From assembly GCA_028554645.1 (NCBI GenBank), contig JAQOOI010000015.1, positions 434,001-498,000 of the forward strand: a DNA stretch of 64,000 nucleotides, written 5' to 3'. The notes under the pieces were generated by a model. It ran no database searches. It worked only from the letters and a program-made list of their open reading frames with translations, and had not been told where the DNA came from. Source of the DNA: Omphalotus guepiniiformis. Taxonomy: Eukaryota; Basidiomycota; Agaricomycetes; Agaricales; Omphalotaceae. Of the stretch, positions 24,692-46,320 are shown in pieces. The position numbers and the translations under genes were made by a program. Positions within the stretch are counted from its first letter, which is position 1. The number at the start of each line of letters is the position of its first letter.

Positions 24692-26535
24692 TGTAGTGAC
24701 TATGAAATGAACAAGAGAGATACTCAAATGAGCACAATCCAACTCAAATCAAAATGATGTAGGGTGAGGTGTGACTGGCGTTGTCAGAGATTCCGCACAG
24801 TTAGACGCAACAATTGAACTTCGAATCTGCAGGGTTACAGATGTCTTTATCTCAACCTGGGTGAAAAATGGCAGAGGGTATCTCAAAACACAAGATTCAG
24901 ACAGAAGGTAAGGGTGGTTTTCAGGGTTCAGGAGGGATTCAGGACAATCAATCTCGATGTTTAAACTCGATCCAATGGTCAGACAATGCAGGGAACAGTT
25001 TCAGATGCAGCACAGACAGTTTCAGCAGGCAGATTCAGCACAGACAGAACAGCAGTTTCAGCAAAGATTCAGTATCTCTTTCAATTTATCTGCCACAAGG
25101 GACTTTACAGAAGTTTTCACAACTGGATATTTCTCGAACTGAACTCTAAAGAGCCAGGCTATATTTCGTCTAAGAAGGTTTTCCTGCTTTGGCTTGTAGC
25201 TTTGGGCAGTACTTGCTTAAGAAAATCTAAATAGATACTCTGTAAACTATATATACTAAATCATAAAATCAAACATATATCTCGAAATTAAAAGAGTAAT
25301 CTGAACAGTAAATGAGTCAAAAGTAAATAAGTATCAATTGAGCAGAGATTGGATTCTTTTTAGGTAGTTTTCTAGGTAATTTTCCAGTTAGATAGTCAAA
25401 ATGAAGGAACTTTGGGTATAGATTGGTATAAAAACAGAAATATATCGCTTTGTCCGCGTTCTAGGTGTGTTAGGGCGTACCCAGGGTATCTAAATAAAGG
25501 TCCAGATCCTGTAAATAGCAACCAGTATCCTGACAGGTGACATTCTCCTTAGTGCATTGCAAATCTGGTCCCCTATAAGTTTCTCCAAAATTGGCACATT
25601 CTCCTCTACTAGGGCAGCATTAGGAGTTGTGTAGAAGTTCTAGAGCTTATCTAGACCATGCTTCATCATTTCTATCAGCCACAGTAAGGTACAGTAACTG
25701 TTTATTTCAAGTTTTACCCCTATACATCTCTTTTTGGTCAGATTTGTACTCAGGTTATATTTCTTGTTTAGGATAGCTCTCCGCTTCTCCTAGGACAGTA
25801 TTCTATCCCATAGTTTCGTCTAAGACCTCCAATTAGAGCGCCTTTGTCTTTCATCAAGTTCAGAGGGTTACTGAATTTCAGAGAGATACTCAGATCCAGA
25901 GAGATACTCATTTTCAGTATCTAACTCCTTCCAGCATGAGTATTGAGTATCTAACTCATTTGTGCAGATGTAACTTTTGAATCTACTTCCCTTATTACAC
26001 AGATTGGCATTTCATCTCAGTGACATTATATCCACATAGTACTCAATGTACAATATTTCTCTGGTAATACAATCTTCAAGATTGCCCATATTCTCAGCAT
26101 TCAATCTTATAGTGCCAACTTAGTTAGCAAGACCAGCTGGAACTTTTGATCAGTCCAAAGGACTTAGATAGTTGTTCAATTGAAGTGAAAATCCATCAAC
26201 CCCTTGGATTACAGTCAACAACACTTGGTAGAGTCTCTAGTTATTAGAGGGTGGGTCTGACCAACTCAATCTGGTATGGAACATTGGAATTCCAACACAT
26301 CTTGAGAGGCATAACTAGTATCTCTTTGTATAACCCATTGGTCACAGTTGCTTAGTACCAGATTCAGTACTGTAGCAAACACTACACTTAGGTATTGTGA
26401 GTACAAGTATGTTTCATGTCTTAACTAACAGTCTGGGGTGACTCTAGTCCTTTATGTTCAGTTTCCAATGCTTGAACATTCCATATTTACTTCAATCTGA
26501 TAGATTTCAGTACTGAAAGGCTTTTTGACGCAACA
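24692..26535 (-). repeat. Element B LTR (3' LTR in element orientation)
   Basis: It matches 46341-48184 along its whole length; I saw three substitutions by eye (near 24857, 25665 and 25788), roughly 0.16%. It contains two copies of GTATCTAAC (25918 and 25947), a motif also found in introns of B2. Short Gln/Ser-rich open frames inside it are not considered genes. Confidence 0.9.
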
Positions 26536-26550
26536 TCTCCCCCAAAGTAA
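26536..26550 (-). other. Polypurine tract of element B
   Basis: On the minus strand the sequence ACTTTGGGGGAGA directly precedes the LTR, as expected for the plus-strand primer of a minus-oriented element. Confidence 0.75.
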
Positions 26551-26839
26551 AATAAGATCGTCCCCGATCGTACCAGATTGGCCAAAATCAAGTTAGATAC
26601 AATTATTACTAGCAGATTTGTCATAGAAGCACATTTCGTACTGTTCAATATCACAATATCACGTCTCACGGACTGCCTTCAGGCAAAACTTTTCTCGATT
26701 GATCGCCAGTCAATATATTTACATCGGCATGTGACGGCAATGTCAGACTTCGGCGAAACCCGCAATCTACTTCTGTCGAAGTTTCGACTTAAACAGACAG
26801 TGATTCTCGTTTTCTCTTCACATCTCACTTCGTCCCCCG

Positions 26840-29369
26840 ATGGATGACTTTTCCAGGCAATTGGCTTCCTCTATCACTCTCAGTAGGGAGCCTTCCGAGG
26901 TACCGGTAAGTCCTTTTTAATTCCTTTCTCTCACGCGCTGCTTTTCACAGTGTGTCACATATATATTCGAGAACCGCTCTCAATTGACGGCCTCTTTCTT
27001 TTCTTTTCCCTCTCACAGCTCTCAGACATGAACGAAGAAGATTACAAGGCTCTTTCCGCCATCGTTTCAAGGCTAGGCGACTTGGACCGACGTCTACGGG
27101 ACCAATCGTTCAAGGAGTTTGGAAAGGGTCTTAGGTTGAGGACCATTACATCCGCTTTCGACGACTTGAATCTCGCCTTGGTAGGCATCATTTCTTTTCA
27201 TCTTCGTTATAGCTAACCTCATCTTTTACAGACTCGCATCGCTTTAACATTTAATCGGTCCCAGCGAGCACATACACATCTCCCCGACTATTTTACCGGT
27301 TCTTTTCTCTCTGTATGCAATCTCGCTTTATGGCTTCATCAGGCCAAACCGACTTCATTTATTGTGCCGCCCTGGGGGCTAAACCGCGCTAAACTTGATG
27401 CTTTCTGCCTCAAGTATACAGTAAGTATCTCTCAGACTGGTTTCATTTCTTTTGCTAACTCTTTACAGCTTCGCAATTTGTGGGAACCACTACCCCCATT
27501 TCCTAAGCTTAAGCAAACTCCGCAGCTCGAGGAAGACAACGACGACGATGAGATCTTACTCCCGCCTCTCGCCACACTGGCTTCGTCCGCCAAGGTTGCT
27601 CGCGCTGAATCTTCGAAGGTTTCGGCACCGGTTTCAAAACCAAAGCCAAAGCCAAAGCCAAAGGCCAAGACTAGTGTAACGCCCTTACCGGGTCGTTCGG
27701 TATGTCTTTTCTTTTTGTTTGAAGAGGTTCTTCTTATTTTATCATTTTTAGATGAAACGCAAGATCTCCGACGTTGAAGCCACGGCCGAATCTACTGAGC
27801 TGACCGACGGCGACGACGATGATACTGACTTCGAGTCCGAGAACTCTGAGCCTCCGGTCAAGAAGTCTCGCGTTTCTGAGGGTAAGAAGCCTGCAGCTGC
27901 AGCTTCAAAGGTACGTTTCCTTATAGATTTATTTATTCTTTTCTCATGTTTTCTTACACAGGGCAAGGGTAAACAGGTGGTCAAGCCAAAACCGAAGATT
28001 CGGAAGATGCGTGTGGAAGAGCCTGCCGATGACCCAGCGTCTCGAAAGACTCGCTCCAAGGCGACTTCAATTACTGTTCCTGCATCCAGCGACGAGGAAG
28101 AGGAGAAGAAGGAAGAGGAGAAATTGGTCAAGACTGAGGGTGCTAAGGCCCCAGTCAATCTCAACGTCGACTTTGAGGCACCTCTATGGGCTTCTCGCGC
28201 TGATTTCTCTACTTCTTCTGTTTCTCTTGCTCCGGGCACTCGTTACGAGGCCCCAAATCTTCAAGTAAGTCTTGTCATTTCTTTTTATTTCATTTCCTTT
28301 TACTGACAATGTCTTTCCTTAGCGATCGGATGGACGAACACCTCAAAATCGTGCGAAGGAGGACTTTGAAGCGATACCCGGTAAGTATCTCTTTTATTTC
28401 ATTTTTCTAGTGTTTGTTTAACGGTTCTTTTACAGGCCGTGTTGTCTTTGGATGGCCTTATGGCCGTCCTGTTACTTTACAGCAACTCGTTTCAGTCAAC
28501 CGCACATTCGATAGGGTGAGTATCTTTCTGACTCGAGATTAATACCCGCTAAATTTTCTTTTCGTCACTCTTTTAGTTCTTCGGCGACTCCATTTGTGCT
28601 GCCTGCGTCGGCGGTACTCACACTGAAGGTAGAGAATGCCGTCCTCAGTTCAACAGCAAGACTTTCGAATGGCGCTGCGCTACCTGCGCAAAGGACAACC
28701 ATACCTGTAGCTGGTCGTACGGCTTGGAAGGCAGCGCTCAGTTGCGATGCCTTTCATACACATTGGCTCGCAGCGGCAGTACAGGTAAGTATTCCTTTCA
28801 TTTCTTTAGACATCTTTTTACTAAAGGTTCTTCGTTTCTTAGTTGTCTCTCAGGAAGCTGAGCAGTTGCAGATTCTCATCGACACCTACGAGGACATGCA
28901 GAACAGCGTCTCCGCGCAGATGCGGGCGATGGAACGGGTACACCGAACGATTTTGCAGCGTCAAGATCATATCAAAGCTTCGTGTCGCGATCCTCGTCTC
29001 GTTTTACATCAGGTTCAGACTGGCGACCCGTCGTTCGACTATTCGGACGAACAGCTCAAACTACTGGCTACCGCGCTTGGATGGGACATCAACCTGGTGT
29101 CTCGAGCAAGCTATATCGCTAGGAACGAATCTGGTCGTTTCGTCGTGGTGGATCCAGAGGTCGAGCCGCAGCCCGGTCCTTCCAATATCCGTTCCACTCC
29201 CGTTGCTACAGCTGACATCGACGAATCGCCTCAGGCGGTCGGTGCTTCGCAAGTCACGGTCGAAGAGGACGAAGACAAGGAAGACGAGCTGGAGGAGGAG
29301 ACAGCCGGCAAGGTACTGGTGCCAGAAAGCAGTCCACTAGCTGGGAGGGACGATCCCCTCTCAGAGTGA
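26840..29369 (+). CDS. Accessory gene B1: spliced, antisense, Cys-cluster coiled-coil protein
   Basis: Ten exons with clean GT-AG introns of about 50-113 nt: 26840-26905, 27019-27180, 27232-27420, 27469-27699, 27752-27910, 27962-28264, 28323-28380, 28436-28515, 28577-28784 and 28843-29369 (660 aa, no stops). Order: helical N-terminal region (EEDYKALSAIVSRLGDLDRR); acidic patch and KPKPKPKPKAK; further basic segments that look like nuclear signals (KRKISD, KKSRVSEGKK); the block GRVVFGWPYGRPVTLQQLV. Then comes a cysteine cluster C-x2-C-x10-C-x12-C-x2-C-x6-C (SICAACVGG to CATCAKDNHTC), a coiled coil (LIDTYEDMQNSVSAQMRAME) and an acidic tail. The second Cys half resembles half of a fungal Zn2Cys6 cluster. 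It is encoded opposite to gag-pol, between pol and the 3' LTR. Function unknown; a nuclear DNA- or RNA-binding role is inference. Confidence 0.7.
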
Positions 29370-30208
29370 CTTTCAAGGCTCGGGTGCACGCATAGTTCGT
29401 ACCCCTTTTTCCCTTTACTTTCTCCATCTCTCAGTCCCAATCTCACAGATCTGTCGCTTTCTTCGCTTGGCTGGGACCTGCCAGATCCGTTCGCATTTCG
29501 TCGCGGGTAGCCTTGGTGTTCAACACACCAGGTTGCCCAAATATATAAAAATTTTATACATCGCTTTTTCTGTAGATACTCCCTGTACTTACTTTATAGT
29601 AGTATAGGTCGAAGTATCTTTATTATAGTCCTGAGCTTCTATGCTCAAAAATACATATTTCATTTTTCTTGGCATGAATCTGGTGTGAAACATAAGAAAT
29701 AAATTTGAGAGTCTCCTTCAAATTGAGTATCTAACTCGATTTTGGAGGGAAACAATTCTTTAAATGACTTAAGCCCACAATTTTCAATAAGTATCGTTTC
29801 TTTTTGAGGATACATTGAATTTAATAAGTCCTTTCTGTCAAGGTTGAGAGCTCTCGGTTACTCGGCAATGCTATTCGGCTAAGTCCTCTGCGGTCAAAGC
29901 TGTCTAGATCTCCAGATTTGAGATATTTGAAATTTCAAAAATTCAAAATTTTTGGCCTTGTAAACTTTGTGTGCTCTCTCCCCCCAAGTAAAATTACTTC
30001 AACGTCCCCGTTGATCAATCTGCTACGCTGGCTAGGCCTCATTGTGCCTGTTTGAACAGCATAGGAGTAATGACCAACTTGCAGATTTAGACGGGGTAGA
30101 CCAGATATAAAAGGTGCAGCGCAGATTCAGAACGACTCAGCACCATCTATCACTTGGTTCTACAACCCTTCCACTTTTATCATTTCTCTATCTCTACATT
30201 TTACAGTT
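29370..30208. other. Spacer between B1 and B2 with a second PPT-like tract and TATA box
   Basis: The stretch near 29978-30018 (CTCTCCCCCCAAGTAAAATT, then CGTCCCCGTTGATC) resembles the sequence at 26533-26572 beside the LTR, including the purine tract on the minus strand. GAGTATCTAACTC occurs at 29725-29737. TATAAAAG at 30106-30113 lies about 100 nt before B2. Confidence 0.5.
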
Positions 30209-31610
30209 ATGGCCCCTAAAGGTCCCAAGACTTGGCCTGAGCGTCCTGAGTGGGTTGCCACAACGCAGCGATATCTTTCTCGAGCTACTGGAGCCATGGA
30301 GGCCAAAGATGCGGATACTGAACTGCTTGGGATGCTTATTACAGCCCTTGCTAGTCATCTTGTAAATGTTCAATCTTTGATTCCAGGTCCAGTATCTAAC
30401 TTGATTTCTTATTACAGAAGAAGTCTCTGCCTGCATATGCAGTTGCTAAGTCCGAGGAAGCGTTCACTTTGTTCGACAAAGGTGTCAATCTGGTCGCAGA
30501 TGCAGTCAAGAAGTTCCCATCTGTAGGTGAACCTGACACTTTCTCCGCCATTAAAGCTTTCCGGGACGACTTGGCAAAGCGCAGAGAGACTCTTAGTGGG
30601 TCTAAGAAGCGCAAAGTACGTTTTTATTGACCATCCCTCTCATTTCGAGTATCTAACTGCCTATCGGTGTGTAGCCAGCTAAAACTCCCGAACTTATTGA
30701 GGATGATGATGATGACGATGAAGAGATTGAGGTCATTACTGGTGACGGAGACGTTACTGTAAGTATCTAACTCCTTGGTTACTGAGTATCTAACTCAAAT
30801 CCCAACATGGTCTTTCTTTTCTCAGATGGCAGATGGACCTTCCCTTGGGCTTTCTGCGTCGATCCACGCTCCCAATAAGGATAACAAGGACTCTAGCAAG
30901 GACAAAACCAAAGGTTCTCCCACTACTACCACAGTTCATAAGTCTTCCAAGGAAAAAGTAGTAATTACTTCTCCAAGGGTAAGTAGATTTATGTTCAGAA
31001 CTGTTCATTCGTTTCTCTTGACTGATGTACCTTGGTAACTTTTCAGGCTACCTCCGTTGGACCCAAAGATGTAAGTTTTTAGTTCCATCTGGAGATATTC
31101 ATGCAGTTTTATGTACTGACTATAAATGTTCATGTAGAATGAACCTATTCCTGAGCCCCACAAGGTGATTGTCATGAAGAAGCCTCGGATTGAGAACCCA
31201 ATCGTCAACCTTAGAGAGGAGACAGACCGTGAGTAGTCACCCAATCTGCGGCTTTTTCGAGTATCTAACTCAATTATCCTGCAGATGAGCGCAAACTCCG
31301 GGAGAGTGGAGAAGAGATTGTGACTCGTATCACTGCTCTGTTCCCTTTCATGGACTTGGACCACTTCTCTCCTGAGGTTCTTCAATCAATTTCCAACTTC
31401 TTGAAGACAGAACTCAGTGTTCATCAACATGCCATTCAGTATCATCATTCTCAGTACAGATTTGCCTACAAGGAGTTTTCCCGTCTGGAATTGCTCCGAA
31501 GACAGAAGGAGAAGGCTTACAGGGCCAACCAGAGTCCCTTGGAGTCTGGTCCAGGTACTGCTGATGATCCAGCTCCTTTCCATGCATTTCCATCTGCAGA
31601 CATTCTCTGA
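30209..31610 (+). CDS. Accessory gene B2: spliced, antisense, charged coiled-coil protein
   Basis: Seven exons: 30209-30361, 30418-30615, 30675-30758, 30826-30978, 31047-31070, 31138-31228 and 31285-31610 (342 aa, no stops). It starts in good context (GTTATGG) after a TATA box. The N-terminal part is helical (WVATTQRYLSRATGAMEAKD, ITALASHLKKSLPAYAVAKS). It is followed by a nuclear-signal-like SGSKKRK, an acidic DDDDDDEEIE run, a Lys/Ser/Thr-rich linker, HERKLRESGEEIVTRITALF and a C-terminal coiled coil (EFSRLELLRRQKEKAYRA). No Cys cluster and no known family. Four of its six introns contain GTATCTAAC, in which CTAAC is a plausible branch site. It runs opposite to gag-pol, next to the end of pol (200 nt tail to tail). 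An intact frame across seven exons in a transposon implies selection or very recent activity. Confidence 0.7.
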
Positions 31611-31811: not shown

Positions 31812-34800
31812 TCATTTATTTTGTGAAGCTTGAGACCTGGTCTGGACTGGAACGTCCCAATCTGGTTCTTCTTCATCTGCATCGTTTGCAGATTGTAGTT
31901 CTTCATCACTGGACTCATCAAGATCTTCATCTTCAGCAGGAATTCTCAGTTGAGGAATACTGTCAAAGATGTAATCTCTCTCAAGTTCAGGGTCTAGCTC
32001 ATTGTTATCATTGACCATCTCTTCTAGTTGTTCACTAGTCAAGTCTATAAGTTCATGAATGTTCTCAGGCAGTTGAATTGGTTCATATCTAGCTACATGG
32101 GGTAGTACTCTGAAGGCAGCAACCTTTTCTCTGAGTACTGTGCCATCCATCTGGGCCACAATGTAGGATCCCCCTTTGGTTCTCCTTATTACAATCATGG
32201 GTCCCAGGTATCTAGGATACATTTTTCTGTCCAAGTTCTTCTCAACTTGTGTATTTCTGACTTGTATAAGTGTACCAGGTTTGAAATCAAAGTCTCTGAT
32301 AACATTTCTGTATTCTTCTTCATATTGTCTAAGAGTCTCTTTCTTGGTTGTATCAATTCTAGATATCATCTCCTGCACATGGGTTCTATGCTTAGCTAGA
32401 GCTTGAGCTCTGTAGCCAATAAGTTCCTCATATGTCAAGATTCTATCTGGAAGTTTCACTAACCATGTAGATTCAACAATATCCAAGGGTAGGATAGGTT
32501 CAGCTCCAGTAACAAGGAAGTATGGTGAACATCCAAGTCCTTTTCTAGCTGTAATTCTATCTGCCCAGAAGACATGTTTGAGAAACCACCACCATCTCTT
32601 TAGATCTCCACCTGTAGCTTTTGCCAAGGCAGTTCTAATGTCAAAGTGGGCTCTCTCAATCTTGCCATTTGCTTGGGAATTGTAAGGAGATATAGTAATT
32701 CCTTTAATTCCATATTTATCTTCTAGCCATTTAAGCATAGCTCGCATCTGGGGTGCATTATCAGTTACTACTTCATCCGGACATCCCCATCTGCATATAA
32801 TATCATCAAAGAACCATTCCCCCAATGATCTAGCATTGTCAGATCTTAAGGCTCTTCCTTCAGACCAGGATGAGAGTGCACATCTGCCATGTACAACATC
32901 CTTGCAACCATTACTTGGAGGTGATACTTTAAATACATCCACATGAATCTTCTGAAACAGGGAGGGAGTGTGTGTAAGAGTGGGAGGAATCTTCAACAAT
33001 TCTAATTTTCGGTTCTGGCAGATTTGGCAGGATTTGACAAACCAATTGACATCTCCATTCAAATCTGGCCACCAAAAACGCTTTTCTATGAGAGCTTTTG
33101 TTGCAAACATTCCTTTATGTCCCAGATGGTCATGAGCAGCATGCATCATGTACATCCTTTTCTCTTTAGGCACAACCAGTCTATGCTGGCCTCCTGTATC
33201 ATCATTCCTTCTATAGAGTCTACCATCTCTGTCTACAAAGAACTTTACAGCCCTGGAAATGAACTTTTTCATAGCAGTCTCACCTAGGTGAGCTAGAGGC
33301 TGATTGCCCTGCAGGTACCAATCTTTGATTAGGTCTAGTTGTTCATCCAGTTCCTTTGTAGATGCAGATCTGTGATCCTCTCTATACGGGTGTTCATGTC
33401 TCCATTCAGTACCTCCTTCAGGTATAACCAAGGTCTGTGCAAACTGCAACATCGAGTTAGATACTGGATGTTGAATTGCTAACAGCTCTCTAATGGAATT
33501 CAAGTGACGTTCTTCTTCAAGAGCTTCTTGCAAATCGTCCTCAAAGTCGTCTATTGACTTTGCAACTTCCTGCAAGTAACCACCTCGAGTATCTATTTCA
33601 TCTTTAAAGGCTTCAAAATCAAAGGGTACCTCAGATTCACCATCTCCCATTCTGAATTTCACCGGCAGACCATCATCTTCATCAACAAATGAATCCGGAT
33701 CTCTAGATGCCGCTCTTTCAGTTGGTATGGTTCCTCTAGGTGGTCTAGATAGTCCATCTGGTCCCTTATGTTCAGTGCCCTTGATGTGTACCAAGGTGAA
33801 GTGGAACTTCCTTATTTCTTCAATCCATCTGTTTATAGTTGCATTGGGACCACTACTGGGTTTGTCAAGCATTCCTTTAATATAGCTTGCATCTGTTTCC
33901 ACAGTAAGATCCCTACATCCATATGTCTGGTAGTATGTTTGTTGTAAGGCCAACATCAAGCCATATAGTTCTCTCTTGGGTTGAGAAAACCTTGCTTCTC
34001 TCTCATTTAAGGTAATAGAACCCATCCAATTGTAGAACTTTTTCTTTGAATCTGCAGGGTCTCTCTGATATAGTTGGAAACCTACTGCCATCCAGGAAGT
34101 ATCTACTGAAAGGGTGGTTCCAGTACTTAAATCATAGTCAATAGGACGGAGTGCTGGAGCATTCCTAATCCCATCTTTAATCATTTCTACAGCTTCCAGT
34201 TCTGCAGGACCCATTTGAAAAGGCACATCTCCAGTTAAGATTGTCAAAGGTTTTGCTTTCTTGGCATAATCCTTTATGAACATTCTCATCTGACCAGCAG
34301 TGCCCAAAAATGACCGGATATCTTTCTTCTCAGACCATTTTGATGCATCACAAGTCAGGACAACTTCAGCTAGCCTTTCCACTGGCTTTTCTCCTTCATA
34401 ACTGACATGATGTCCAACAACATCACCTTCAGCTACACAGATGAAAGCTTTGGTCCCTGCAAAGCAGCATGTTTCATTCTTTGCACAATTCTGTTCATAT
34501 TCTGCAAATGCTCCCACACAAACCTTCTGATGCCAGAATTTTCAGGGATAGTTTCATAACCTCCATCTGCAGTTTCATATCTGCTGACAGGCCCTTTTAC
34601 TGGTACATCATCAATGTAAGGTTTAGTTACATGTGGAATTTCATCTCTGAAGATATATGTAACATCATCATGATAGATAGGGACAGAGTTTGTCCAACCC
34701 ATAGGTAACTTCACTAATCTATGTGGGCCAAAAGGTGTTTGGAAGGTTGTAAGATCTCTTGAACTTTCATCAACCAGCCTCTCATCATACCCAACAAAGA

Positions 34801-35848
34801 TATCCAGTAATCCCAAACATGCTCTTCCAGAGAAGCTTCTAGCTATATCTGCAGTTGCAGGAGGAATTCCTGAATGTTGAATAGTCACTTTATTGAGTGG
34901 TTCTAAACTATGGACCAATCTTAAGCTTTTTCCATCTTTCTTTAAGACACAGAACCATCTGGATCTATAGGATGAACTAGAAGGCTCATATACACCAGCA
35001 TCTATTTTGTCCTTAATCATTTTACACACTTGATCATAGATCCCTGGAGGTATAGGAATATTCCTTTCTACCCAAGGAGTGTGTGGTAACACTGGAAACT
35101 TTACTGGAGGAAAGAACTCTGTATTAAAGGTTCCTCCTTCAGATGCTTCCCATGCAAATGCTTTTTCTTGGACTTTCATAAGATGGTGTACAAGTTTCAT
35201 TTCTTCAGGCCATAAGAAACCTTCATTATGATTCTTGTCTACAATTTCTTTTCTTTCTTGAGAGTACCTCTCACCAGGAGTGAAATCTGGAGGATGAGTA
35301 GGTAACTCAGGCATATCTTTTAACGGATCTCCAATTATTTTTCTTTCAATCCGGAACTCCGCAGGTAAGGTAGCTTTAACAGGTTTGACCTTAATAGCAA
35401 CTGGTTTGTACTTTCTAGAAGCCAAAACAGTCACCAATCTGGCCATTTTGTTGCCATTCTTATCTCTACTCCATCTGGGTCTTGAAGATTGGACAGGTTT
35501 AGGTTCCCTTTTGACCTTTTTACCCTTATTCATCCTCTTTTCAGTTCCAGATGCGGGTTCCGAAGTGTGATTAAGTACCGTGCAAGTATCTAAGTCTGAA
35601 TTCTGAGTATCTAAGTGCTCTTTTGAATTCAAATTTAAATTTTCTCGCCAGGTACAGAACACTTGTTTCTTTTCTGAGTCTACAGACCGATTTAAATACG
35701 ATCTAACCGAATCTGCAGCCGCTATATCGTTTTCTCTTATGATGGATTCAGCTGCAAACACAAATGCCTCAGCCTTTTCAGGTTCTGAAAACAATTCATT
35801 GTCTGGCAGCTTATATCCAGCAATTGTGGCATTGCCATCTTCATCCAT
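31812..35848 (-). pseudogene. Element B pol, copy 2 (7-nt deletion)
   Basis: Same protein as copy 1 (38585-42814), but a 7-nt deletion between 34464 and 34465 (GTACCAC is present in copy 1) breaks the frame. The N-terminal part, with RT motifs, is read from 35848 to about 34465. The rest, RNase H and integrase, is in another frame from about 34464 to 31812. It ends naturally with QASQNK and stop, showing the true C-terminus that copy 1 lacks. One other coding change was noted (GGTGGTTCC versus GGTGATTCC near 34115; Thr to Ile). Confidence 0.85.
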
Positions 35849-35883
35849 TTCAATACAAACAGCTACCTCTCCCTGATCTCTTA

Positions 35884-37281
35884 TCAGTTCATTGAGGTCT
35901 GATGAAAATTTTGAGAGTCTCCCTCATTTTTCACAGGGACACTCGCAGATTTCTGTGTTTCTGGGACAAGCTTTGGTTCACCAGGAATAGGTTTAACCTT
36001 AATTCCTCTACCTCTGTCATATGTTCCCATTGTACACTTCATTCCACTGTTTGGATCTGTAATGGTGATCTCTTGTTCTCCAGTTTCAAAGTTTCTGACT
36101 ACACTGCTTGTCAACACATCAAATGGTCTTCCCAAAAGAACATCATAAGGCACTTTATCTATTATGTGGATCTGCATATAGATAGTTATTTCTCCAAAGG
36201 TAAATGGTACATTTCTTGCTAGTCCCCTAGTAGCCTGTAATTGACCATTTGCACTTTGCATATGGATCACAGTCTCTGGGTCCCATCTTAAACCAAGTCC
36301 AATAGCTACTCTTGTATCCATGGACACGATTTGAGAACCACTATCAACTACTGTCTCAACTTGTTGATCAGAGTGATTAATCTTTGGGTAGATTGCCTTT
36401 AGACTGTCAGTCTGGCTGGCTACTATAATGATCTTGTTCCTCTCATCTGGAGGTACATCTTTCTGATACTGGTCCACAACATCCTTGTGTACCACTGAGC
36501 CTTTCTTAAGGTCATCTGTGTCTTCATCTAGGACAATAAACACATCTTCCCTTTCATAGGCCATATCTTCAATAAAGACCATATAATTTGCCTGTACCAG
36601 ATTGACATTTTCTTCTGGTAGAATACCATCAGGATCATCTTCATCCCTTACTTCATGAACAAAAGCCTTTACAGGACGCTTATACACCCTGTTGTTCTTC
36701 AATTTTCTCTGCATAATCTTCTGAAGTGCCGGAGATATAGCAATGAGGTCCCCACTACTTATATCTATCTCAGATCTAAAGATTTTGTCTGCAATTTCTT
36801 CTGCTAGACCCGGTTTGAATAGTGAGTTTCTAAGCTTGAAATCGGGCTCAGATTTACGCGGAGGCTTTGTGTATACAATAGCATTCCTTATATCATTACT
36901 CATTCCATTTTTAGTTCCAGATTGAGCTCCTTCAGTCTCATTTGACTTGTTCTGGCTTCCTACAGGCATTCCCTTTGGTATAGGTGGCCTATCTATTGCC
37001 TTTACATGATCAAACGGACGGTTAGATACTCTCCGTGCAACATCGTTGTTATTTTCAGAGGGAGATTCAATCTCCTCAGTGTCAGAATCAACGGGTAGTT
37101 CAAAACGAACGGGCTCTTTTCTCATAGCAGGGGGTCTGTATTTCTCCCTTTCAGATGGTTTCAGTGTAGGTAGTAACACTTCAACTCTCTTTTTCTTTAC
37201 AAGTTTATTTTCCTCAGGAGATTGACCTGTTTTGTGAGAAGGATTCTGAGTATATACAGCTTCTTCACCAATCTCCTTCAT
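35884..37281 (-). CDS. Element B protease-containing ORF, copy 2
   Basis: 465 aa and identical as far as I can see to the copy at 42850-44247. It has a basic N-terminal linker, then a retropepsin-type domain with VVDSGSQIVSMD (the DSG catalytic triad) and, further on, DVLLGRPFDVL (hydrophobic-hydrophobic-GR flap partner). It processes the polyprotein in family members. Its frame overlaps the end of gag in the -1 register, and pol follows in the -1 register after a slippery site (complement 35905-35911). Confidence 0.8.
   Translation of the reverse strand: MKEIGEEAVYTQNPSHKTGQSPEENKLVKKKRVEVLLPTLKPSEREKYRPPAMRKEPVRFELPVDSDTEEIESPSENNNDVARRVSNRPFDHVKAIDRPPIPKGMPVGSQNKSNETEGAQSGTKNGMSNDIRNAIVYTKPPRKSEPDFKLRNSLFKPGLAEEIADKIFRSEIDISSGDLIAISPALQKIMQRKLKNNRVYKRPVKAFVHEVRDEDDPDGILPEENVNLVQANYMVFIEDMAYEREDVFIVLDEDTDDLKKGSVVHKDVVDQYQKDVPPDERNKIIIVASQTDSLKAIYPKINHSDQQVETVVDSGSQIVSMDTRVAIGLGLRWDPETVIHMQSANGQLQATRGLARNVPFTFGEITIYMQIHIIDKVPYDVLLGRPFDVLTSSVVRNFETGEQEITITDPNSGMKCTMGTYDRGRGIKVKPIPGEPKLVPETQKSASVPVKNEGDSQNFHQTSMN
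35905..35911 (-). promoter_or_regulatory. -1 frameshift heptamer A AAT TTT, PR to pol (copy 2)
   Basis: In the PR frame the minus strand reads CAA AAT TTT CAT, with stop TGA 18 nt later. Moving back one base at this heptamer enters the pol frame, which is open from there through the pol ATG. A second copy lies at complement 42871-42877. Confidence 0.55.
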
Positions 37282-37289
37282 TGGAAACT

Positions 37290-38778
37290 CTAGTTTTTCG
37301 ACTCAGAGTTGTTTTCTCGTTTCAAAATCTGCTTAGTTTCAGATTTAGCTGCTGGTGCCAGATTCTGCAAAGTATTGCAAACCTGACTGAATTGAGCAAC
37401 AAGGCTGTTGATAGCATCTAATGAACTACTTTGAGAGGGACCTGCCATAGCCGAATCCTCATCTTCAAAAGCATACAAGTTCTGGTCAACATGAGAGGAA
37501 GGTTGTTCCCATCCATGTCTTTTGGCAATTTCCTCAATCTTCTCTTTCTTAGACCGAGTATCAGACGGATCAGCTCTTGGCCAATATACTCCATCTTTCA
37601 ATGCCCATTTACCAGCACTATTCTTGATCATCCACCCCAACCTGATAAATCTAAGTTGATGTGGACAGTCCATAGATCTATGTCCAGGCTCATCACACAT
37701 ATAGCAATTGGAGTCAGCATGAGTATTATTATTCACAGATGACATCTGGGACGATCTTTGTACACTATTGTGTCCATTAGAGTTCATTCCAGGTCCAGAT
37801 TGGGAATTTGGAGCATTCATGTTCATCCTAACTGAGCTAGAAGTTGCTTGGGTCATTTTTGCCAAGTTAGCAACTGTCTCAGATAGCTTTGCAAGAGCTG
37901 CCAGATTCGTTTCCTGGGCTTGTCTAATCTGGTTAAACTGGTTCTGGTGACTATCCACTGTTGCAGACAATTTCATTGCCCACTGATCTGGTTCTGACTT
38001 CACAGTAGATGCTACTTGGTAAGGATCATATAACTTCCTTGTAGCACTCTGCTCAGTTGTTGGGAGTATCCTAGAGTATCCTTCTGCCAGATTTGGACCA
38101 TTCAAGAATAAACCAAAGTTGTATCCCCCTGCTCTTTTTACAGAACAGAGTTTTTCAGCCTCAGACATTACATCTTTCAGAGTAAAAGGGTCATCCTCTC
38201 TCTGAACTTGTAAGTGGCCATTGATCACTTTGTTTTCTAGGCGGTCCAGAAGTTTTCTTCTGAAGGGTTCATCTAGTGCACTCAAGAAACCAGCTACAGC
38301 TTCTGAGTTTGATACTACAGGTGTAGTACCAGAAGATAGTTTCTCATACTCAATCTCATACTCTCTTTTAAATGCCATCAGTTTCTGAATAGCACCAAGC
38401 ACTATGAGCTTATATGCATCAATGATAGCATACAATCTTTGTCTAGATCCCAGTCCTCTATCTGCAGATTCAGGGAAATTTTTCATTAATGCCTCTTTGA
38501 AAGCATCCCAATCCAAATCTTTAACAGCTTGAAGCCGTTGAAACTCTTCACGGGTATGGAACTCCATGTATCTGAGAGCCAACATTACTTTAGCCGCATC
38601 TGTTTTAGTTCCGGTTGACACAAAGATGCCTTCCAGCTCTGCCAACCATGCAACCAATTCAGATGGATGTTTCTTATCGAAGATGGGGGCCTGCTTAGAG
38701 ACTTTAGGTAGTTTCTCATTTTGCAACTCTTTAGCTGCAGGAACAGGAATCTGCATTCCTGTTGCATTTCCAAAAATG
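37290..38778 (-). pseudogene. Element B gag, copy 2 (5'-truncated)
   Basis: Uninterrupted gag from IFGNATGMQIPVPAAKEL to the stop at 37290. Its N-terminal part is absent because the sequence is joined at about 38779 to the 3' end of pol copy 1. Contains the gag capsid-like region (LVAWLAELEGIFVSTGTKTD, LDWDAFKEALMKNFPE) and a CCHC zinc knuckle, CYMCDEPGHRSMDC. The T-tract that is frameshifted in copy 1 is normal here (TTT at 38340-38342). Confidence 0.85.
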
Positions 38779-41700
38779 ATTGTGAAGCTTGAGACCTGGT
38801 CTGGACTGGAACGTCCCAATCTGGTTCTTCTTCATCTGCATCGTTTGCAGATTGTAGTTCTTCATCACTGGACTCATCAAGATCTTCATCTTCAGCAGGA
38901 ATTCTCAGTTGAGGAATACTGTCAAAGATGTAATCTCTCTCAAGTTCAGGGTCTAGCTCATTGTTATCATTGACCATCTCTTCTAGTTGTTCACTAGTCA
39001 AGTCTATAAGTTCATGAATGTTCTCAGGCAGTTGAATTGGTTCATATCTAGCTACATGGGGTAGTACTCTGAAGGCAGCAACCTTTTCTCTGAGTACTGT
39101 GCCATCCATCTGGGCCACAATGTAGGATCCCCCTTTGGTTCTCCTTATTACAATCATGGGTCCCAGGTATCTAGGATACATTTTTCTGTCCAAGTTCTTC
39201 TCAACTTGTGTATTTCTGACTTGTATAAGTGTACCAGGTTTGAAATCAAAGTCTCTGATAACATTTCTGTATTCTTCTTCATATTGTCTAAGAGTCTCTT
39301 TCTTGGTTGTATCAATTCTAGATATCATCTCCTGCACATGGGTTCTATGCTTAGCTAGAGCTTGAGCTCTGTAGCCAATAAGTTCCTCATATGTCAAGAT
39401 TCTATCTGGAAGTTTCACTAACCATGTAGATTCAACAATATCCAAGGGTAGGATAGGTTCAGCTCCAGTAACAAGGAAGTATGGTGAACATCCAAGTCCT
39501 TTTCTAGCTGTAATTCTATCTGCCCAGAAGACATGTTTGAGAAACCACCACCATCTCTTTAGATCTCCACCTGTAGCTTTTGCCAAGGCAGTTCTAATGT
39601 CAAAGTGGGCTCTCTCAATCTTGCCATTTGCTTGGGAATTGTAAGGAGATATAGTAATTCCTTTAATTCCATATTTATCTTCTAGCCATTTAAGCATAGC
39701 TCGCATCTGGGGTGCATTATCAGTTACTACTTCATCCGGACATCCCCATCTGCATATAATATCATCAAAGAACCATTCCCCCAATGATCTAGCATTGTCA
39801 GATCTTAAGGCTCTTCCTTCAGACCAGGATGAGAGTGCACATCTGCCATGTACAACATCCTTGCAACCATTACTTGGAGGTGATACTTTAAATACATCCA
39901 CATGAATCTTCTGAAACAGGGAGGGAGTGTGTGTAAGAGTGGGAGGAATCTTCAACAATTCTAATTTTCGGTTCTGGCAGATTTGGCAGGATTTGACAAA
40001 CCAATTGACATCTCCATTCAAATCTGGCCACCAAAAACGCTTTTCTATGAGAGCTTTTGTTGCAAACATTCCTTTATGTCCCAGATGGTCATGAGCAGCA
40101 TGCATCATGTACATCCTTTTCTCTTTAGGCACAACCAGTCTATGCTGGCCTCCTGTATCATCATTCCTTCTATAGAGTCTACCATCTCTGTCTACAAAGA
40201 ACTTTACAGCCCTGGAAATGAACTTTTTCATAGCAGTCTCACCTAGGTGAGCTAGAGGCTGATTGCCCTGCAGGTACCAATCTTTGATTAGGTCTAGTTG
40301 TTCATCCAGTTCCTTTGTAGATGCAGATCTGTGATCCTCTCTATACGGGTGTTCATGTCTCCATTCAGTACCTCCTTCAGGTATAACCAAGGTCTGTGCA
40401 AACTGCAACATCGAGTTAGATACTGGATGTTGAATTGCTAACAGCTCTCTAATGGAATTCAAGTGACGTTCTTCTTCAAGAGCTTCTTGCAAATCGTCCT
40501 CAAAGTCGTCTATTGACTTTGCAACTTCCTGCAAGTAACCACCTCGAGTATCTATTTCATCTTTAAAGGCTTCAAAATCAAAGGGTACCTCAGATTCACC
40601 ATCTCCCATTCTGAATTTCACCGGCAGACCATCATCTTCATCAACAAATGAATCCGGATCTCTAGATGCCGCTCTTTCAGTTGGTATGGTTCCTCTAGGT
40701 GGTCTAGATAGTCCATCTGGTCCCTTATGTTCAGTGCCCTTGATGTGTACCAAGGTGAAGTGGAACTTCCTTATTTCTTCAATCCATCTGTTTATAGTTG
40801 CATTGGGACCACTACTGGGTTTGTCAAGCATTCCTTTAATATAGCTTGCATCTGTTTCCACAGTAAGATCCCTACATCCATATGTCTGGTAGTATGTTTG
40901 TTGTAAGGCCAACATCAAGCCATATAGTTCTCTCTTGGGTTGAGAAAACCTTGCTTCTCTCTCATTTAAGGTAATAGAACCCATCCAATTGTAGAACTTT
41001 TTCTTTGAATCTGCAGGGTCTCTCTGATATAGTTGGAAACCTACTGCCATCCAGGAAGTATCTACTGAAAGGGTGATTCCAGTACTTAAATCATAGTCAA
41101 TAGGACGGAGTGCTGGAGCATTCCTAATCCCATCTTTAATCATTTCTACAGCTTCCAGTTCTGCAGGACCCATTTGAAAAGGCACATCTCCAGTTAAGAT
41201 TGTCAAAGGTTTTGCTTTCTTGGCATAATCCTTTATGAACATTCTCATCTGACCAGCAGTGCCCAAAAATGACCGGATATCTTTCTTCTCAGACCATTTT
41301 GATGCATCACAAGTCAGGACAACTTCAGCTAGCCTTTCCACTGGCTTTTCTCCTTCATAACTGACATGATGTCCAACAACATCACCTTCAGCTACACAGA
41401 TGAAAGCTTTGGTCCCTGCAAAGGTACCACCAGCATGTTTCATTCTTTGCACAATTCTGTTCATATTCTGCAAATGCTCCCACACAAACCTTCTGATGCC
41501 AGAATTTTCAGGGATAGTTTCATAACCTCCATCTGCAGTTTCATATCTGCTGACAGGCCCTTTTACTGGTACATCATCAATGTAAGGTTTAGTTACATGT
41601 GGAATTTCATCTCTGAAGATATATGTAACATCATCATGATAGATAGGGACAGAGTTTGTCCAACCCATAGGTAACTTCACTAATCTATGTGGGCCAAAAG

Positions 41701-42814
41701 GTGTTTGGAAGGTTGTAAGATCTCTTGAACTTTCATCAACCAGCCTCTCATCATACCCAACAAAGATATCCAGTAATCCCAAACATGCTCTTCCAGAGAA
41801 GCTTCTAGCTATATCTGCAGTTGCAGGAGGAATTCCTGAATGTTGAATAGTCACTTTATTGAGTGGTTCTAAACTATGGACCAATCTTAAGCTTTTTCCA
41901 TCTTTCTTTAAGACACAGAACCATCTGGATCTATAGGATGAACTAGAAGGCTCATATACACCAGCATCTATTTTGTCCTTAATCATTTTACACACTTGAT
42001 CATAGATCCCTGGAGGTATAGGAATATTCCTTTCTACCCAAGGAGTGTGTGGTAACACTGGAAACTTTACTGGAGGAAAGAACTCTGTATTAAAGGTTCC
42101 TCCTTCAGATGCTTCCCATGCAAATGCTTTTTCTTGGACTTTCATAAGATGGTGTACAAGTTTCATTTCTTCAGGCCATAAGAAACCTTCATTATGATTC
42201 TTGTCTACAATTTCTTTTCTTTCTTGAGAGTACCTCTCACCAGGAGTGAAATCTGGAGGATGAGTAGGTAACTCAGGCATATCTTTTAACGGATCTCCAA
42301 TTATTTTTCTTTCAATCCGGAACTCCGCAGGTAAGGTAGCTTTAACAGGTTTGACCTTAATAGCAACTGGTTTGTACTTTCTAGAAGCCAAAACAGTCAC
42401 CAATCTGGCCATTTTGTTGCCATTCTTATCTCTACTCCATCTGGGTCTTGAAGATTGGACAGGTTTAGGTTCCCTTTTGACCTTTTTACCCTTATTCATC
42501 CTCTTTTCAGTTCCAGATGCGGGTTCCGAAGTGTGATTAAGTACCGTGCAAGTATCTAAGTCTGAATTCTGAGTATCTAAGTGCTCTTTTGAATTCAAAT
42601 TTAAATTTTCTCGCCAGGTACAGAACACTTGTTTCTTTTCTGAGTCTACAGACCGATTTAAATACGATCTAACCGAATCTGCAGCCGCTATATCGTTTTC
42701 TCTTATGATGGATTCAGCTGCAAACACAAATGCCTCAGCCTTTTCAGGTTCTGAAAACAATTCATTGTCTGGCAGCTTATATCCAGCAATTGTGGCATTG
42801 CCATCTTCATCCAT
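38585..42814 (-). CDS. Element B pol, copy 1 (RT-RNase H-integrase), with fused foreign tail
   Basis: 1409 codons. RT: YRSRWFCVLKKDGKSLRLVH, LPMGWTNS and the catalytic box PYIDDVPVKG (YIDD, unusual next to the YLDD of element A). RNase H: SVDTSWMAVGFQLYQ, ELYGLMLALQQ and VETDASYIKGML. Integrase: HH-CC zinc finger (HAAHDHLGHKG, CQICQNR), then the D,D-35-E core (HVDVF, VVTDNAPQM, YNSQANGKIERAHFD) and a GPY-type segment YLGPMIVI. RT before integrase is the Ty3/Gypsy order. The last about 65 codons (after SQASQ) are not native: they come from copy 2 gag read out of frame past the junction near 38780. It is expressed, by inference, by -1 frameshifting from PR. Confidence 0.85.
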   Translation of the reverse strand: MDEDGNATIAGYKLPDNELFSEPEKAEAFVFAAESIIRENDIAAADSVRSYLNRSVDSEKKQVFCTWRENLNLNSKEHLDTQNSDLDTCTVLNHTSEPASGTEKRMNKGKKVKREPKPVQSSRPRWSRDKNGNKMARLVTVLASRKYKPVAIKVKPVKATLPAEFRIERKIIGDPLKDMPELPTHPPDFTPGERYSQERKEIVDKNHNEGFLWPEEMKLVHHLMKVQEKAFAWEASEGGTFNTEFFPPVKFPVLPHTPWVERNIPIPPGIYDQVCKMIKDKIDAGVYEPSSSSYRSRWFCVLKKDGKSLRLVHSLEPLNKVTIQHSGIPPATADIARSFSGRACLGLLDIFVGYDERLVDESSRDLTTFQTPFGPHRLVKLPMGWTNSVPIYHDDVTYIFRDEIPHVTKPYIDDVPVKGPVSRYETADGGYETIPENSGIRRFVWEHLQNMNRIVQRMKHAGGTFAGTKAFICVAEGDVVGHHVSYEGEKPVERLAEVVLTCDASKWSEKKDIRSFLGTAGQMRMFIKDYAKKAKPLTILTGDVPFQMGPAELEAVEMIKDGIRNAPALRPIDYDLSTGITLSVDTSWMAVGFQLYQRDPADSKKKFYNWMGSITLNEREARFSQPKRELYGLMLALQQTYYQTYGCRDLTVETDASYIKGMLDKPSSGPNATINRWIEEIRKFHFTLVHIKGTEHKGPDGLSRPPRGTIPTERAASRDPDSFVDEDDGLPVKFRMGDGESEVPFDFEAFKDEIDTRGGYLQEVAKSIDDFEDDLQEALEEERHLNSIRELLAIQHPVSNSMLQFAQTLVIPEGGTEWRHEHPYREDHRSASTKELDEQLDLIKDWYLQGNQPLAHLGETAMKKFISRAVKFFVDRDGRLYRRNDDTGGQHRLVVPKEKRMYMMHAAHDHLGHKGMFATKALIEKRFWWPDLNGDVNWFVKSCQICQNRKLELLKIPPTLTHTPSLFQKIHVDVFKVSPPSNGCKDVVHGRCALSSWSEGRALRSDNARSLGEWFFDDIICRWGCPDEVVTDNAPQMRAMLKWLEDKYGIKGITISPYNSQANGKIERAHFDIRTALAKATGGDLKRWWWFLKHVFWADRITARKGLGCSPYFLVTGAEPILPLDIVESTWLVKLPDRILTYEELIGYRAQALAKHRTHVQEMISRIDTTKKETLRQYEEEYRNVIRDFDFKPGTLIQVRNTQVEKNLDRKMYPRYLGPMIVIRRTKGGSYIVAQMDGTVLREKVAAFRVLPHVARYEPIQLPENIHELIDLTSEQLEEMVNDNNELDPELERDYIFDSIPQLRIPAEDEDLDESSDEELQSANDADEEEPDWDVPVQTRSQASQSFLEMQQECRFLFLQLKSCKMRNYLKSLSRPPSSIRNIHLNWLHGWQSWKASLCQPELKQMRLK
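38776..38788. other. Pol-gag recombination junction
   Basis: Gag sequence (TTCCAAAAATGA, as at about 45752) is joined directly to the 3' end of pol (TTGTGAAGCTTGAG, as at 31817). I see no shared bases at the join. This is where two element bodies meet with no LTR. Confidence 0.8.
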
Positions 42815-42849
42815 TTCAATACAAACAGCTACCTCTCCCTGATCTCTTA

Positions 42850-44247
42850 TCAGTTCATTGAGGTCTGATGAAAATTTTGAGAGTCTCCCTCATTTTTCAC
42901 AGGGACACTCGCAGATTTCTGTGTTTCTGGGACAAGCTTTGGTTCACCAGGAATAGGTTTAACCTTAATTCCTCTACCTCTGTCATATGTTCCCATTGTA
43001 CACTTCATTCCACTGTTTGGATCTGTAATGGTGATCTCTTGTTCTCCAGTTTCAAAGTTTCTGACTACACTGCTTGTCAACACATCAAATGGTCTTCCCA
43101 AAAGAACATCATAAGGCACTTTATCTATTATGTGGATCTGCATATAGATAGTTATTTCTCCAAAGGTAAATGGTACATTTCTTGCTAGTCCCCTAGTAGC
43201 CTGTAATTGACCATTTGCACTTTGCATATGGATCACAGTCTCTGGGTCCCATCTTAAACCAAGTCCAATAGCTACTCTTGTATCCATGGACACGATTTGA
43301 GAACCACTATCAACTACTGTCTCAACTTGTTGATCAGAGTGATTAATCTTTGGGTAGATTGCCTTTAGACTGTCAGTCTGGCTGGCTACTATAATGATCT
43401 TGTTCCTCTCATCTGGAGGTACATCTTTCTGATACTGGTCCACAACATCCTTGTGTACCACTGAGCCTTTCTTAAGGTCATCTGTGTCTTCATCTAGGAC
43501 AATAAACACATCTTCCCTTTCATAGGCCATATCTTCAATAAAGACCATATAATTTGCCTGTACCAGATTGACATTTTCTTCTGGTAGAATACCATCAGGA
43601 TCATCTTCATCCCTTACTTCATGAACAAAAGCCTTTACAGGACGCTTATACACCCTGTTGTTCTTCAATTTTCTCTGCATAATCTTCTGAAGTGCCGGAG
43701 ATATAGCAATGAGGTCCCCACTACTTATATCTATCTCAGATCTAAAGATTTTGTCTGCAATTTCTTCTGCTAGACCCGGTTTGAATAGTGAGTTTCTAAG
43801 CTTGAAATCGGGCTCAGATTTACGCGGAGGCTTTGTGTATACAATAGCATTCCTTATATCATTACTCATTCCATTTTTAGTTCCAGATTGAGCTCCTTCA
43901 GTCTCATTTGACTTGTTCTGGCTTCCTACAGGCATTCCCTTTGGTATAGGTGGCCTATCTATTGCCTTTACATGATCAAACGGACGGTTAGATACTCTCC
44001 GTGCAACATCGTTGTTATTTTCAGAGGGAGATTCAATCTCCTCAGTGTCAGAATCAACGGGTAGTTCAAAACGAACGGGCTCTTTTCTCATAGCAGGGGG
44101 TCTGTATTTCTCCCTTTCAGATGGTTTCAGTGTAGGTAGTAACACTTCAACTCTCTTTTTCTTTACAAGTTTATTTTCCTCAGGAGATTGACCTGTTTTG
44201 TGAGAAGGATTCTGAGTATATACAGCTTCTTCACCAATCTCCTTCAT
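42850..44247 (-). CDS. Element B protease-containing ORF, copy 1
   Basis: Same 465-aa protein as at 35884-37281, with the DSG protease motif and basic linker. Its reading frame is open upstream of its ATG into the end of gag, so it can be made as a gag-PR fusion by a -1 shift near the gag stop (complement 44256-44265). Confidence 0.8.
   Translation of the reverse strand: MKEIGEEAVYTQNPSHKTGQSPEENKLVKKKRVEVLLPTLKPSEREKYRPPAMRKEPVRFELPVDSDTEEIESPSENNNDVARRVSNRPFDHVKAIDRPPIPKGMPVGSQNKSNETEGAQSGTKNGMSNDIRNAIVYTKPPRKSEPDFKLRNSLFKPGLAEEIADKIFRSEIDISSGDLIAISPALQKIMQRKLKNNRVYKRPVKAFVHEVRDEDDPDGILPEENVNLVQANYMVFIEDMAYEREDVFIVLDEDTDDLKKGSVVHKDVVDQYQKDVPPDERNKIIIVASQTDSLKAIYPKINHSDQQVETVVDSGSQIVSMDTRVAIGLGLRWDPETVIHMQSANGQLQATRGLARNVPFTFGEITIYMQIHIIDKVPYDVLLGRPFDVLTSSVVRNFETGEQEITITDPNSGMKCTMGTYDRGRGIKVKPIPGEPKLVPETQKSASVPVKNEGDSQNFHQTSMN
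42871..42877 (-). promoter_or_regulatory. -1 frameshift heptamer A AAT TTT, PR to pol (copy 1)
   Basis: A canonical X XXY YYZ site in the PR frame, 18 nt before the PR stop. After a -1 shift the frame is open into pol at 42814. Confidence 0.55.
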
Positions 44248-44255
44248 TGGAAACT

Positions 44256-44265
44256 CTAGTTTTTC
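44256..44265 (-). promoter_or_regulatory. Near-canonical -1 frameshift site at the gag stop (gag to PR)
   Basis: The minus strand reads TCG AAA AAC TAG; GAAAAAC differs by one base from the classical A AAA AAC. The -1 frame from here (AAA CTA GAG TTT CCA ATG) leads without a stop into PR. The same sequence is present in copy 2 at complement 37290-37299. Confidence 0.45.
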
Positions 44266-45831: not shown

Positions 45832-46320
45832 ATTGTTTCTCGGGTTCCTTATTATTTTAACAGGGATTCTTTTATGTGTCAAGGCAAAATATTGAGGACT
45901 GTTAACAAAGTTCCTCTTATTTTTCTTGTATCTAGCTGAGAGTTCAGATAAATCTGGAGGTGTATTCCGTTCAGGAATCGTACTTAGGGACGAAAGAGAC
46001 GAAAGGGAACTTGAATCTGGTTCAGGTATGACTTCTTTCTCTTTTCCTTTGGAACTTTTCCTTCTGGATGACTGGTTCAGTGACAATTCTTCTGTTCCAG
46101 CTCTCTCAGAATTCTTAGTCTTTCTAGGACGTGTGTTTCTCTGTGAGCTGCTAATTTTGACAAGCAAACTCTAAGTTATAAAACTTATAGATGGTTCAAC
46201 AACTTCAAGGAAATTGTTGCTAAGTGAGGAACAGGGCAAAGTTCAACACAGAAAAAGTCCAGATTTATTTCCAGACACGTGTAAATACACAGATAGTTCA
46301 ATTATCAAGTCTAAAGCCAC

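Follow-up and report, generated by a model that had tools for sequence, protein, structure and literature searches.

Genes lying antisense between pol and the 3' long terminal repeat (LTR) form a described class in LTR retrotransposons, with gene23 of Grande, RIRE2, TRP28 of Retand, PvRetro13 and the fungal brtn of Boty as members (PMC7264820, PMC11963269, PMC8365987). The antisense gene of Grande has a promoter of its own and encodes a nuclear protein, and 97% of Retand clusters code for TRP28, which is thought to bind DNA (PMC7264820, PMC11963269). HBZ of human T-cell leukaemia virus type 1 (HTLV-1) is a spliced antisense nuclear regulator (PMC10186651). VANC21 of the Arabidopsis VANDAL transposons binds the motif YAGTATTAY, which is concentrated in the introns and upstream regions of the element that encodes it (PMC5735166). 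We analyzed a 64,000-nucleotide window of the basidiomycete Omphalotus guepiniiformis (assembly GCA_028554645.1, contig JAQOOI010000015.1, positions 434,001 to 498,000; G000:C14:434001-498000), in which a Ty3/Gypsy-type element, element B, carries two predicted multi-exon genes, B1 and B2, antisense to its gag-pol. An initial annotation of this DNA knew of no named family for such genes; the elements above show that the kind itself is known, and new here are a pair of spliced genes with a cysteine cluster, the occurrence of such pairs in several families and the repeated DNA words that go with them. We read B1 and B2 as putative element-encoded, zinc-cluster-like nuclear regulators that recognize their own element in the manner of VANC or HBZ, with a probability of about 0.52.

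The B1 coding sequence comprises 1983 nt including the stop codon and is divided by nine GT-AG introns of 48-113 nt; that of B2 comprises 1029 nt with six GT-AG introns of 56-68 nt (Table 1). These exon models bear out the 10 exons and 660 codons first assigned to B1 and the 7 exons and 342 codons assigned to B2. The claim of open frames across every junction was likewise confirmed, with 15 of 15 introns in the window bounded by GT-AG. By coordinates, both genes lie inside element B as initially described, on the strand opposite to gag-pol, between the end of the pol open reading frame (31812, minus strand) and the 3' LTR, and overlap neither gag nor pol.

Table 1. Coordinates of element B, its antisense genes and associated features within the window.
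Feature	Position	Strand	Remarks
Gene B1, 10 exons, 660 aa	26840..29369	+	antisense to gag-pol
B1 exons 1-5	26840-26905, 27019-27180, 27232-27420, 27469-27699, 27752-27910	+
B1 exons 6-10	27962-28264, 28323-28380, 28436-28515, 28577-28784, 28843-29369	+
B1 six-cysteine cluster CX2CX10CX12CX2CX6C, exon 9	28595..28708	+	spacing counted by hand
B1 heptad-like stretch (predicted coiled coil) and start of conserved DPxL...LGWD region, exon 10	28845..29010	+
Gene B2, 7 exons, 342 aa	30209..31610	+	antisense to gag-pol
B2 exons	30209-30361, 30418-30615, 30675-30758, 30826-30978, 31047-31070, 31138-31228, 31285-31610	+
B2 last exon	31285..31610	+	conserved across four families; helical in predicted model
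TATA box, 103 bp upstream of B2 ATG	30106..30112	+	counterpart in five of five families
Two AGTATCTAACT copies in LTR	25916..25956	+
AGTATCTAACT between B1 and B2	29726..29736	+
Five AGTATCTAACT copies in B2 introns 1, 2, 3 (two) and 6	30391..31270; starts 30391, 30648, 30762, 30785, 31260	+
3' LTR of element B	24692..26535	-	1844 bp; TG...CA termini on minus strand
Purine-rich tract adjoining 3' LTR, resembling a polypurine tract	26536..26551	-	assigned by eye
gag-pol of element B	31812..46170	-	tandem duplication of ~6.97 kb
5' LTR of element B	46341..48184	-	TGG stretch resembling a primer-binding site begins 2 nt beyond (by eye)
Element A antisense gene, two exons (~53250-52684, 52634-51765)	51765..53250	-	own model; in-frame stop in window copy

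The plant elements with antisense open reading frames (aORFs) resemble element B in the place and orientation of the gene, its presence in most copies and its conservation, and further in the nuclear product and promoter of Grande and the suspected DNA binding of Retand (PMC7264820, PMC11963269). Element B differs in having two genes of 10 and 7 exons, a six-cysteine cluster and no TRP28 match; the word "intron" does not occur in the texts of PMC7264820 and PMC11963269 as available. Boty, from Botrytis and Sclerotinia, is a fungal counterpart by description, in that its antisense gene, too, follows pol (PMC7264820, PMC8365987). No basidiomycete antisense multi-exon gene pair was present among the literature matches listed, subscription journals being largely outside the coverage.

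Intactness was next assessed across a genome of 42.5 Mb in 80 contigs. At least 36 matches to region 26840-31610 were found (a lower bound, 33 of 93 candidates being scored), of which 26, the window included, were full-length at 92-100% identity. The alignment comprised 31 rows, the window and 30 copies; nine copies cover both genes, L018 additionally covers B1, and the others are partial. Second pieces of copies or of the window (L001, L010, L014, L019, L021, L033-L036 and L038) and the diverged L039, L043 and L044 were left out. Read with the window's junctions, all complete coding sequences (11/11 for B1 and 10/10 for B2) had an ATG, no internal stop and a final stop. Covered exon lengths differed by zero or a multiple of three in 29 of 31 rows (exceptions L020 and L028), and three copies (L005, L029 and L045) had one non-GT-AG intron each. 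Taken one at a time in the aligner's placement, gaps were multiples of three in 5 of 15 cases in exons and 5 of 38 in introns; exon totals are the fairer measure of frame because neighboring exon gaps sum within an exon.

Both B1 and B2 are under purifying selection. The ratio of nonsynonymous to synonymous divergence (dN/dS, Nei-Gojobori, kinship among copies ignored) for the window against the 30 pooled copies was 0.101 for B1 (synonymous differences Sd 2067, nonsynonymous Nd 741) and 0.032 for B2 (Sd 196, Nd 21). With every distinct codon variant entered a single time, the ratios were 0.142 and 0.130, and single pairs ranged over 0.08-0.15 and 0-0.13, respectively. This check, proposed with the initial annotation, thus returned low values for both genes (B1 0.10-0.14, B2 0.03-0.13). 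The end of pol gave 0.146 (window against seven copies), a conservation comparable to that of the antisense genes, as in the aORF class. Between L045 and the window, codon positions 1, 2 and 3 of B1 exons 2, 3, 4, 6, 9 and 10 differ by 4-8%, 2-6% and 25-39%, and this periodicity follows the splice-set frame on both sides of the introns; exons 1, 5, 7 and 8 are short or little diverged. Chance open reading frames were rejected on the grounds of frames, splice sites, dN/dS and pol linkage.

Divergence was unevenly distributed between the two genes. Third positions in diverged copies differ by 20-40% in many B1 exons and mostly by 0-12% in B2 (up to 25% in exon 4), and the B1-B2 spacer by only 2-6%. 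The B1 gene of L015 is unlike the window in exons 2-4 and nearly identical from exon 6 onward. B1 appears as a diverged mosaic within otherwise far more similar elements (L015, L018, L009, L030 and L045). This looks like recombination between diverged element lineages, concentrated in B1. Diversifying selection on B1 was rejected, since silent divergence is high but dN/dS low. The B1 introns of L045 diverge less on average than its third positions (73 of ~542 vs 160 of 661 bases).

Linkage to pol was examined using a B2 search that returned 228 matches in all, with 61 last-exon rows listed, and 65 of 150 pol rows, mainly from near families. Among the matches listed, 60 of 61 B2 last exons have the pol C-terminus on the opposite strand at a distance of 172-238 bp; for the remaining one, at C8:232061, no pol row was listed within 1 kb. 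This placement indicates element genes rather than captured host genes. Homologues found mostly as ordinary genes outside retrotransposons had been named at the outset as the finding that would overturn the claim, and in this genome, among the matches listed, the opposite was seen. Of the places matching the 3' half of B1, 40 of 48 among the matches listed have B2 within 5 kb downstream. B1 and B2 are almost certainly real genes belonging to the element and, being intact, antisense, element-tied and selected, most likely serve it.

Related pairs were predicted in further element families, and the conserved spliced pair, judged by sequence comparison, appears to span four related families (pol 66-100% identical). 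L039 (pol 90%) carries both genes; identity is 54% for B1, across 425 alignment columns from its first part, and 72% for B2. Intron phases agree with those of element B throughout B2 (six introns) and for introns 1-7 of B1. L041 (pol 66%) has a gene 1 of 6 exons and 547 aa and a gene 2 of 6 exons and 354 aa, matched by the B1 and B2 profiles at E 1e-14 and 2e-12, and the introns flanking its cysteine exon correspond to B1 introns 8 and 9 in place and phase. L040 and L050 are two copies of a 71% pol family in which gene 2 was found by profile (E 1e-8 and 4e-9). Gene 1 was found in L050 by the B1 profile (E 5e-9 and 6e-8), apparently without a counterpart of B1 intron 8. Loss of gene 1 from this family was considered and rejected: L040 has another element's gag-/pol-like frame at that place, and L050 carries the gene. 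In L042 (pol 52%), where neither the B1 nor the B2 profile matches, one antisense gene includes a six-cysteine exon, and another antisense coding stretch lies close to pol. The B1 profile likewise does not find the antisense gene of element A, the element within which B is nested.

Intron places are kept between families with 27-54% B1 protein identity, which indicates that copies did not arise via reverse transcription of spliced antisense mRNA. From what is known of LTR-element replication, the sense RNA would be the natural carrier: introns would survive retrotransposition because the reverse-transcribed RNA is the sense gag-pol RNA, in which they lie backwards. The earlier proposal that antisense placement preserves the introns through the sense genomic RNA is thereby supported. 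A retroelement could thus carry introns over long periods if they lie on a strand that is not reverse transcribed from spliced RNA. Upstream of the predicted gene 2 ATG, TATAAA(A/G) was found at 46-111 bp in five of five families (B, L039/L044, L041, L042 and L050); the sequence occurs once or twice on that strand per 5-6 kb stretch.

B1 is predicted to encode a zinc-cluster-like protein in which six cysteines precede a coiled coil, and B2 a charged, partly helical one. Six cysteines followed by a coiled coil are shared with fungal Zn(2)-Cys(6) regulators of the Gal4, Leu3 and Put3 type, from which B1 differs by its longer first spacing and the lack of a Pfam match. Hand-counted spacings in the other families were CX2CX8CX11CX2CX6C (L041), CX2CX6CX8CX2CX7C (L042) and CX2CX6CX11CX2CX6C (element A). 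None of the B1, B2 and L041 gene 1 products reached a Pfam cut-off, and B1 and B2 gave no match to the Transposase 28 domain (PF04195) at E<=1. For the last exon of B2 the AlphaFold model was helical (mean predicted local distance difference test score, pLDDT, 77.5) with no PDB match at E<=0.001, and a PDB sequence search with the B1 core gave a best E of 1.1. A search of 5.8 billion proteins yielded no homologue at E<=0.001 of B1 residues 360-600, B2 or the element A product; fungal relatives were not returned either, making this search uninformative on rarity.

Short repeated words were found dispersed through the non-coding DNA of these elements. All 12 exact copies of AGTATCTAACT in the window fall within element B. 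The two LTRs together account for four of them and the duplicated pol for two; of the rest, one lies in the spacer and five lie in introns of B2. Allowing one mismatch gave 23 matches in the window vs 1.2 expected. The genome contains 644 occurrences of AGTATCTAACTC and 8 of its reversed control, a difference expected from carriage on a multi-copy element. In shuffle tests corrected for the best word per stretch, the largest excesses were AGTATC in element B non-coding DNA (23 vs 2.6 expected), CCGCG in L042 non-coding DNA (26 vs 2.1) and CCGGA in the element A LTR (10 vs 1.0), with 0/200 shuffles reaching the best word in each case. Within the B LTR alone AGTATC was counted 10 times vs 1.3 expected. 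No clear excess was seen in B1/B2 coding sequence (3 vs 0.8, reached by 25/500 shuffles), and the L040 test lay at the edge.

Dense family-specific motifs in the non-coding DNA of the element itself, the mark of a VANC-type system, were observed in B, L042 and A, and weakly in L041 and L050; some host controls also slightly exceed their shuffles. VANC resembles the arrangement in B in combining an element-encoded factor with a family-specific short motif in its own introns and upstream parts, in one orientation, the factor-word pairing in B being a candidate. It differs in belonging to a DNA transposon and in its proven binding and demethylation (PMC5735166). How a zinc cluster might relate to the words can be considered for each family. 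Zn2Cys6 proteins bind CGG triplets. CGG is present in the words of the 52% family and of element A and absent from that of B, and B1 also has the unusual cysteine spacing; this agreement across families is suggestive, not a test.

We propose that B1 and B2 would be transcribed by RNA polymerase II from the strand opposite to gag-pol in this Ty3/Gypsy-type lineage. Gene 2 would be driven by its own internal promoter, marked by the TATA box, and the gene 1 transcription start would lie between gene 1 and the 3' LTR or inside the latter. The antisense transcripts would be spliced and yield two proteins with nuclear-type features, B1 presumably binding zinc. The pair would then act in trans on element DNA, with B1, perhaps together with B2, recognizing a family-specific word in the LTR, introns and spacer and thereby altering transcription or silencing of the element. 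The direction of the effect would be activation or anti-silencing rather than repression. That the products act in the nucleus on the element's own DNA is an evenly balanced proposition. The initial annotation had cast both as helping the element, for example as nuclear regulators; selection and pol linkage support the first part, and the second is a role that the runs resembling nuclear localization signals (NLS), the six-cysteine cluster and the coiled coils would fit. More tentatively, the antisense intron-rich pairs may form a self-recognition system, in which zinc-cluster regulators target their own family's word, spread through LTR, introns and spacers, and each protein evolves in step with its word as families diverge: AGTATC for B, CGCGG for the 52% family and CCGGA for element A. 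LTR-retrotransposon antisense genes have long been known without a function. The arrangement raises the question of whether an LTR retrotransposon could encode a factor that locates the element's own DNA and activates it or protects it from being silenced. Many copies, measurable selection and candidate target words in one fungal genome make a direct test possible.

Several observations weigh against this reading. On the protein side, B1 gives no Pfam Zn_clus match, and the first spacing of its cluster is 10 residues in place of the usual 6, departing from the CX2CX6C first half of a Zn(2)-Cys(6) cluster; modelling this region with AlphaFold gave a mean pLDDT of 49, and the model was discarded. 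In L039 the B1 frame is lost at exon 8, and in none of the four families covered does TATAAA occur within 200 bp of the gene 1 start codon. The word tests were exploratory. AGTATC is also over-represented in B gag-pol (12 vs 3.7). CCGGA in L050 (12 vs 2.3) exceeded 200/200 shuffles at k=5 and was reached by 65/200 at k=6, and L041 lay above all shuffles for the whole stretch and for chosen words, its non-coding test being reached by 4 and 6 of 200. Seven 3.4-kb host control chunks were reached by 26, 4, 43, 21, 26, 0 and 1 of 100 shuffles. Of three longer (7-kb) stretches of host DNA, two beat all 100 shuffles at k=7 by a small margin. The host-control excess is far smaller than in B and L042. 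As the controls are not clean, only large excesses (B, the 52% family and probably A) carry weight. Lastly, AGTATCTAAC is similar to a 5' splice site extension combined with a CTAAC branch site, and splicing could account for the intron copies.

From this last point follows a doubtful but serious alternative, that the repeated word is merely a splicing signal or host factor site unrelated to B1 and B2. Five of the eight AGTATCTAACT copies between the 3' LTR and pol do lie in B2 introns and contain CTAAC. This explanation does not account for the AGTATC excess in the LTR, for the unrelated words of other families, or for the copies in L039 and L044 that fall outside predicted introns, one of them on the other strand.

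Action as replication-cycle accessory factors, in nuclear import of the pre-integration complex, RNA export or integration-site choice, is less probable than sequence-specific regulation but would suit the NLS-like runs and coiled coils, and purifying selection is equally expected. Such roles have been discussed for the plant antisense genes (PMC7264820). Family-specific DNA words are not predicted by it. Slightly less probable again is that the pair represses its own element, to limit copy number or keep it latent, in the way that HBZ and APH proteins reduce the activity of the 5' LTR. The antisense, spliced, 3'-LTR-proximal anatomy is that of HBZ and of APH-2/3/4, which encode LTR-acting regulators (PMC10186651). 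These belong to vertebrate retroviruses and are basic leucine zipper or other proteins without the cysteine cluster, and their promoter lies in the 3' LTR whereas B gene 2 has an internal TATA box. Long-term selection in several families would also be easier to explain by a factor that helps the element spread. We regard it as very unlikely that the antisense RNA itself is of value, through double-stranded RNA or interference, with the proteins as by-products: transcripts of other elements may act so (PMC7264820), but low dN/dS, frame-keeping exon lengths and kept splice sites need selection on protein, and neither gene overlaps gag-pol. Captured host genes riding as passengers are the least probable, for although the introns look normal and capture is known for other elements, no separate host copy was seen among the matches listed, homologues occur in families with pol 66-90% identical, and by eye four of the eight unpaired B1 pieces (C20, C63, C18 and C46, the others being C79, C71, C55 and C65) have another family's pol before the next B2.

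Element B spans 24692-48184 on the minus strand, and its LTRs are 99.84% identical over 1844 bp. TG...CA termini with an adjacent primer-binding site and polypurine tract, the latter two assigned by eye, conform to a Ty3/Gypsy LTR element. In pol (31815-34541), Pfam detected RT_RNaseH (36.8 bits, cut-off 24.8) before Integrase_H2C2 (67.2 bits, cut-off 25.5), which by domain sequence is the Gypsy order. A 500-aa piece (41390-42889, minus strand) expected to hold the reverse transcriptase (RT) core gave no Pfam match at E<=0.01, suggesting a diverged RT or one missed by Pfam filters. The gag-pol part makes this copy atypical: two copies (31821-38779 and 38780-45746) lie in tandem at 99.87% identity, which is unusual for an LTR element.

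Element A lies on the plus strand (LTRs 23127-23666 and 53480-54019; gag 23665-24696; pol 48153-51569) and contains element B in opposite orientation. Its pol includes RT, RNase H and integrase by Pfam, with a chromodomain match just below cut-off (25.0 vs 25.1 bits). No target-site duplication was visible by eye at the ends of element B (24676-24691 and 48185-48205), and the flanking pieces of element A seem not to meet, the gag C-terminus and protease being apparently missing. These two observations suggest recombination rather than simple insertion of element B. The antisense gene after element A pol has 52 genome matches, and 23 of 25 other rows at 92-98% identity are stop-free over the matched part. 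The L049 copy is intact, and its product exceeds the Pfam Zn_clus cut-off (22.5 vs 21 bits); weak matches to LEU3 (E 0.16) and PUT3 (E 0.88) were obtained. Relatives of this protein at 30-54% identity lie near contig starts (C1:2138-5504, C13:4424-7789 and C78:96-587) and in series (C4:30037-38773 and C15:178566-193824), perhaps in subtelomeric arrays. Element A is flanked by 99-bp coding repeat units, ankyrin-like by eye, at 22431-23225 and 53923-54519, and may have inserted into the gene that contained them.

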